64,000 nt of DNA from Pseudokineococcus lusitanus. GTDB lineage: Bacteria > Actinomycetota > Actinomycetes > Actinomycetales > Quadrisphaeraceae. The stretch spans positions 558,001 to 622,000 of the forward strand of contig NZ_RJKN01000001.1 in the NCBI RefSeq assembly GCF_003751265.1. The letters run 5' to 3'. This document shows positions 33,035 to 33,766 of the stretch, one piece after another. The notes below the pieces were generated by a model that saw only the letters and a list, made by a program, of their open reading frames with translations, ran no database searches and was not told where the DNA came from. The position numbers and the translations under genes were made by a program. Position 1 is the stretch's first letter. Each line of letters begins with the position of its first letter.

Positions 33035-33107
33035 GCGCTGCTAGCTCAATTGGCAGAGCAACTGACTCTTAATCAGTGGGTTCCCGGTTCGAGTCCGGGG
33101 CGGCGCA
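33035..33107 (+). tRNA. tRNA-Lys(CTT), prophage attachment site
   Basis: 73-nt cloverleaf. Acceptor GCGCTGC pairs with GCGGCGC (one T-G); D arm GCTCAATTGGCAGAGC; anticodon stem ACTGA/TCAGT with loop CTCTTAA (anticodon CTT); T arm CCCGG-TTCGAGT-CCGGG; discriminator A. CCA is not encoded. Phage genes begin directly at its 3' end, and the phage repressor frame enters it from the right, so its 3' half is the probable attB/attL core. Confidence 0.93.
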
Positions 33108-33398
33108 CTCGGAGGCAACCTGGCCCCCGTCCGGTCCATCCGGGCGGGGGCCTCGTGCGTCCACGGCTCCAACGAAGTAGCCGACCGGCACGTTGAGCAG
33201 GCCCGCCAGCTGCTCGAGGTCGTCGACGTCGAAGGCCGTCTGCCCCGTCGCCCGCCTGCTCCAGTAGGCCGATGACTGCCCCAGCAAGTTGCCCAGCGAC
33301 CGCACGCTGATGCGCGCCCGCGCCAGCTCAGCGCGGACCTGGCCGGCGACGAGGTCCCGGGCGCTGCCTCGCCTGGGCAGCGGAGTGACTGTGCTCAT
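33069..33398 (-). CDS. Phage immunity repressor ending within host tRNA-Lys
   Basis: 109 residues from an ATG at 33398. A helix-turn-helix covers about residues 20-65 (VRAELARARISVRSLGNLLG, then RRATGQTAFDVDDLEQLAGLLNVPVGYF), the layout of actinophage immunity repressors. The last dozen codons, ending SNREPTD, are antisense to tRNA-Lys, and the TAA stop (33069-33071) lies in its anticodon loop. So the C-terminus of the lysogenic form is set by integration. It is divergent from the cro-like gene. Its promoter has GTGACA (33429-33434), an 18-bp spacer and TACGCT (33405-33410) 6 nt from the ATG. Confidence 0.8.
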   Translation of the reverse strand: MSTVTPLPRRGSARDLVAGQVRAELARARISVRSLGNLLGQSSAYWSRRATGQTAFDVDDLEQLAGLLNVPVGYFVGAVDARGPRPDGPDGGQVASECAAPDSNREPTD

Positions 33399-33424
33399 GC
33401 GGTGAGCGTATAGAGCACCCGCTA

Positions 33425-33437
33425 GGCGTGTCACGCC
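33425..33437. promoter_or_regulatory. Operator candidate GGCGTGTCACGCC on the repressor promoter
   Basis: Perfect 6-bp arms around one central base. It covers the repressor -35 hexamer (33429-33434), so a bound protein would block repressor transcription. Confidence 0.5.
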
Positions 33438-33501
33438 AATCGCGCGACTTCACCCTCTAGAGACGACTCAGCACGATCACCGACGCGTTGGGGTTGACAC
33501 C

Positions 33502-33518
33502 GCGTCGCTGAGCGACGC
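33502..33518. promoter_or_regulatory. Operator candidate GCGTCGCTGAGCGACGC on the cro promoter
   Basis: Perfect 8-bp arms around a central G, in the -35/-10 spacer of the cro promoter. A 15-nt part (CGCGTCGCTGAGCGA) is repeated exactly at 33536-33550 inside the cro-like gene, 35 bp downstream, giving two candidate sites. Confidence 0.6.
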
Positions 33519-33529
33519 ACCATCCCGGC

Positions 33530-33766
33530 ATGCCCCGCGTCGCTGAGCGAGTCGCCGCATCGGTGAGAGCCGAGATGGCACGTCGCAAGATCAGCCAGGC
33601 CACTGTCGCACGCCATCTCGGCATGTCGCAGCCCGCCGTCTACCGCCGCCTCGCCGGCGTCGTGCCCTTCGACGTCAACGAGCTGCAGGCCGTCGCCGAC
33701 CTCCTCGAGGTCCCCACCAGCACCCTGCTCGCCGACGAGCCGACGGCCGCCGCGGTGACGTCGTGA
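33530..33766 (+). CDS. Cro-like helix-turn-helix protein
   Basis: 78 residues from ATG 33530. RKISQATVARHLGMSQPAVYRRLAG is a compact helix-turn-helix (near 19-43), followed by VPFDVNELQAVADLLEVPTSTLL, which resembles the same region of the divergent repressor. By position it is the Cro or lytic-switch protein. The DNA encoding its first codons carries the second operator copy, so it may be autoregulated. Its stop overlaps the next GTG. Confidence 0.8.
   Translation: MPRVAERVAASVRAEMARRKISQATVARHLGMSQPAVYRRLAGVVPFDVNELQAVADLLEVPTSTLLADEPTAAAVTS

Follow-up and report, generated by a model that had tools for sequence, protein, structure and literature searches.

A repressor gene that ends inside a host tRNA gene raises the question whether insertion of the prophage itself decides which form of the repressor is made. 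In the window, i.e., the whole 64,000-nucleotide stretch analysed here (C1:558001-622000 of a 3.84-Mb draft genome, referred to as G000), ARAGORN places a tRNA-Lys(CTT) gene on the plus strand at 33035-33108, and a minus-strand frame (33069-33398) runs leftward into it, as the first-pass annotation had described. Translation from ATG 33398—GTG 33434 could serve as start instead—yields 109 residues, the last 12 codons and the stop being antisense to the tRNA; the TAA is the complement of 33069-33071, which comprise anticodon bases two and three together with the A that follows. The protein matches Pfam BetR (5.4e-5) and PHROG 2328 “transcriptional repressor” (7.6e-10), and there is no integrase between repressor and tRNA at this locus, again in agreement with the earlier description. 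Judged from its sequence organization, the locus very probably represents an integration-dependent immunity switch of the type known from mycobacteriophage BPs, carried by a 48.7-kb tailed-phage prophage, which is the reading that the annotation had proposed.

The ends of the element agree with this reading. In a DNA search of the host's own genome, the 3′ sequence of the tRNA was recovered once more, 48.7 kb rightward of the first copy; when both are aligned, the shared core comprises precisely 38 bp, beginning with the A that follows the anticodon and reaching the 3′ end of the tRNA. The attL core AATCAGTGGGTTCCCGGTTCGAGTCCGGGGCGGCGCAC (33071-33108, plus strand), whose first base completes the repressor stop, is identical at 38/38 positions to the attR copy at C1:639760-639797 (extended coordinates 81760-81797, outside the window), so that the tRNA at attL consists of the host 5′ part and the 38-nt core. 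Just inside the attR core and transcribed away from it, a tyrosine integrase of 352 aa is encoded on the minus strand (C1:638374-639432, extended 80374-81432; Pfam Phage_integrase, 1e-22), in which R205, K231, H287, R290, H313, and Y322 are invariant in alignment A1. Both the second core and the integrase beside it had been predicted for the far end of the prophage. An integrase or core repeat that would place attP outside the repressor gene was also looked for and none turned up in G000, the sole other full core copy seen being attR.

Both cores included, the element measures 48,727 bp; its body occupies 33109-64000 of the window and continues to extended coordinate 81797. PHROG matches between the cores comprise ParB-like, DNA polymerase processivity factor, terminase, portal, protease, capsid, tape-measure, and minor tail genes, which identifies it as a tailed-phage prophage. 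In the early region, the phage-encoded processivity factor and the ParB-like gene lie close together (37272-38870 and 39583-40887), and a 392-aa frame at 41452-42630 appears HNH-like by eye and has a repetitive C-terminal stretch (EQQEQQPAPSARPRTQRAPEQQEQQ).

The viral arrangement was rebuilt in silico by connecting the right end through the core to the left end; in it, the 38-bp core lies inside a repressor frame of 145 aa, i.e., 36 residues longer than the prophage form. Here, the predicted attP junction reads CCCACTGATTCTGGGTGG in antisense, with a TCT codon at the position where the host sequence at attL provides TAA (anticodon TT plus the core A). Across the core the frame reads CAAPDSNREPTD followed directly by SGWGRADVVVPLAPLRRGSERRAPGRRELAPAAVAA and the stop; this viral-only 3′ end is located at extended coordinates 81650-81759 (minus strand, outside the window) and terminates in RRELAPAAVAA. 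Hence, the 3′ extension anticipated beyond the far core exists, it ends in small residues (ELAPAAVAA), and a viral form identical to the prophage form, which would have spoken against a switch, was not obtained. The TGA of the viral repressor overlaps the GTG start of a 74-aa frame (C1:639429-639653, extended 81429-81653, minus strand) as GTGA, and the stop of the latter overlaps the integrase start in the same manner, resulting in the co-directional order rep-GTGA-orf74-GTGA-int. The 74-aa frame matched no family in Pfam or PHROG and had no relative among the other 395 genomes of the order searched; since phage records likewise contained no convincing relative, a conserved role was rejected. 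The host tmRNA tag is ADSKRTDFALAA, ending in ALAA, and the viral tail -AVAA would qualify as an ssrA-like tag by no more than its last residues; as background, about 2% of six-frame open reading frames of at least 80 aa in the prophage end in -AA.

The following course of events can be proposed. As long as the phage genome is circular, attP forms part of the repressor gene, which would be read through into the -AVAA tail and on to the small gene and int. The 145-aa form would presumably be destroyed by the host protease recognizing ssrA tags, and its predicted destruction would keep an unintegrated phage lytic. Recombination of attP by Int with the 3′ half of tRNA-Lys(CTT) would regenerate the tRNA and displace the tail by 48.7 kb to attR, while the host anticodon would supply the TAA in the antisense frame. 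The resulting 109-aa form is predicted to be stable, to repress the early promoter, and to confer immunity. At attL, the stop codon making the shorter repressor comes from the host anticodon itself.

As to the early promoter, the divergent cro-like gene of the first-pass annotation is present on the plus strand at 33530-33766 and encodes a 78-aa HTH protein (Pfam BetR, 2.2e-8, and HTH_3; PHROG 4583, 6.8e-21). Over 66 residues it is 38% identical to repressor residues 13-78, as if one had been derived from the other. A perfect 17-bp palindrome, GCGTCGCTGAGCGACGC (33502-33518), is a candidate operator, and the TTGACA adjoining it (33494-33499, plus strand) could be the -35 element of a rightward early promoter; it is on these two features that the assignment of operator and promoter is based. 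Moreover, a 16-nt direct repeat occupies 33500-33515 and 33535-33550. A consensus scan found neither promoters nor terminators, and a search for dispersed operators like those of BPs gave merely weak sites with two mismatches, which we regard as unconvincing.

Which known systems does this locus resemble? In BPs and Angel (gp33-gp32), attP likewise covers a tRNA 3′ end within the repressor frame, int lies downstream, a divergent gene is present, and the viral repressor exceeds the prophage form, with 136 versus 103 aa as compared with 145 versus 109 aa here; BPs gp33 carries an ssrA-like tag and the BPs integrase also has a proteolysis signal (PMC4557955). The best PHROG of both repressors is 2328, with 3.1e-41 for Angel gp33 and, for the protein described here, a weak match that includes the tRNA-antisense part. 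Differences are the core, which is another one and is read as RPEGFEPPTF, the end of the tail (-DKAS in Angel), and the position of int, which follows directly in the simplest BPs layout, whereas the 74-aa frame intervenes here. Among integrase relatives in the phage collection, small Gordonia phages rank on top (50-45% identity) and Angel, of the BPs family, shares 43%; for some of these relatives, integration-dependent immunity has been described.

Close in design are also the Gordonia phages GMA5, GRU3, Jeanie, and McGonagall, for which a tRNA-Lys attB, a 37-bp attP, and integration-dependent immunity were reported, including an open reading frame between int and repressor in GMA5 (PMC5559632). 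They read the core in the same frame (CAIRDSNPEPAD), their tails end in AA, and their integrases are 45-47% identical to the one described here; however, their genomes comprise 17-18 kb, their hosts are Gordonia, and the letters of the core differ. A core similar to the one described here is read in this frame by SallySpecial, McGonagall, and GMA5, whose repressors end in -SAA, -VAA, and -AAA, respectively. The earlier suggestion that a tRNA-Lys version would be new consequently does not hold, and the system belongs to a known kind. Further cases showing its three defining features (set out in PMC9934374 and PMC8092301) are prophages of M. abscessus, e.g., prophiT36-2a/b; a difference is that the T36 prophages use tRNA-Thr and stand in tandem at one site. 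For Bb423phi2 and 689b-1 of Bifidobacterium, in silico reconstruction likewise gave a viral repressor that is longer and carries an ssrA-like tag, in another host and with a tail of 18 residues (PMC6109161). As far as we found, novelty is limited to the host lineage, and the switch of mycobacterial, Gordonia, and bifidobacterial phages extends to another actinobacterial family.

Related prophages occur at the same site in other genomes. In a congener (G004), two short contigs, which we infer to be both ends of one element, carry the termini of a relative of the present prophage, inserted in tRNA-Lys(CTT); its prophage repressor ends in LGLEPRTH, the remnant at attR continues as THWFWSSRTDGATVTPIRRAAERRAPGERELAPAAAAA to a stop overlapping int by GTGA, and the viral tail ends in LAPAAAAA. 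In G016, a member of another family, cores lie in tRNA-Lys at C7:329206 and C7:362112, the prophage form ends in EPRTR, and the remnant RTRWFSASDRLAA gives a viral tail ending in SDRLAA. At the position of the TGA that comes from the host tRNA, both phages have TGG, and both read the core in a frame different from that of the repressor in the window; for M. abscessus prophages, it was already reported that a single core is read by two repressors in different frames (PMC9934374). A profile scan of viral contigs for the integrase, in which the single sequence gave no match, found matches, and a scan of genome contigs with generic integrase motifs gave no close relative among the matches listed.

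These relatives bear on a simpler view, namely that an ordinary tRNA-integrating prophage has a repressor reaching the tRNA by chance, its long viral frame being devoid of regulatory meaning. Frames antisense to tRNAs are indeed common in high-GC DNA, and 54 non-repressor frames crossing the T arm were seen in viral contigs with related integrases. Ends in -AA, however, recur: they were present in 10/18 repressor-like frames crossing the T arm versus 6/54 of the others (p = 0.0003), a count that leans slightly towards known cases because GRU3 and GMA5, through their IMG copies, account for two of the 18 and because the recognizing profile had itself been seeded in part with GMA5; this profile was built from N-terminal parts, which extend into the tail in the case of Sally and GMA5, whose proteins are short. 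Repressors of this kind lacking -AA occur in the set as well. With the GTGA coupling to the next gene, a layout common to three prophages and the named phages, and the conservation of the tail described below, we consider chance very improbable.

A direct comparison of G000 and G004 is informative in this respect. They have left-arm genes in common, their integrases are 72-77% identical and both end in RPAA, and at the C-terminal end of the viral repressors 15/18 residues are identical, with four codons differing purely by a synonymous third position. Residues 1-66 gave no significant BLAST alignment, and the divergent HTH genes seem unlike each other. From core to stop the distance is 123 nt in G000 and 119 nt in G004, which offsets the difference in core reading so that the tail stays in frame. 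Since no more than about 110 bp separate the tail from the core, a distance at which arm sites can occur, the tail DNA might be conserved for integrase arm binding or as an attP flank rather than as a protein tag; given the synonymous changes and the length differences preserving the frame, this is equally improbable. That a homologous tail is kept in frame behind unlike heads and core frames that differ is rather evidence for selection on the tag, in keeping with the integration-dependent switch.

Though this is one pair only, it is consistent with an exchange of the immunity cassette in which one junction lay within or close to the core and the reading frame of the tag was preserved, and it suggests a route by which immunity groups could diversify. 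More generally, the tRNA-derived core might act as a joint for swaps of immunity specificity, in which the DNA-binding half of the repressor and cro are exchanged, int retains the tag half, and the frame of the tag is restored by small indels adjacent to the core; we offer this as a tentative idea that we hold to be somewhat doubtful.

Single tRNA-Lys cores w​ere found in G005 and G006, no related integrase being present there, and host flanks that had been rejoined matched the sequence there across the junction at 81 and 88%, respectively. G005 was considered as an occupied site on account of an antisense HTH-like stretch running into the tRNA and was rejected, as it has neither an integrase nor a second core. 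In this congener, the HTH-like frame (L063 3543-4439), beyond which no phage genes were recognized, is possibly a prophage remnant.
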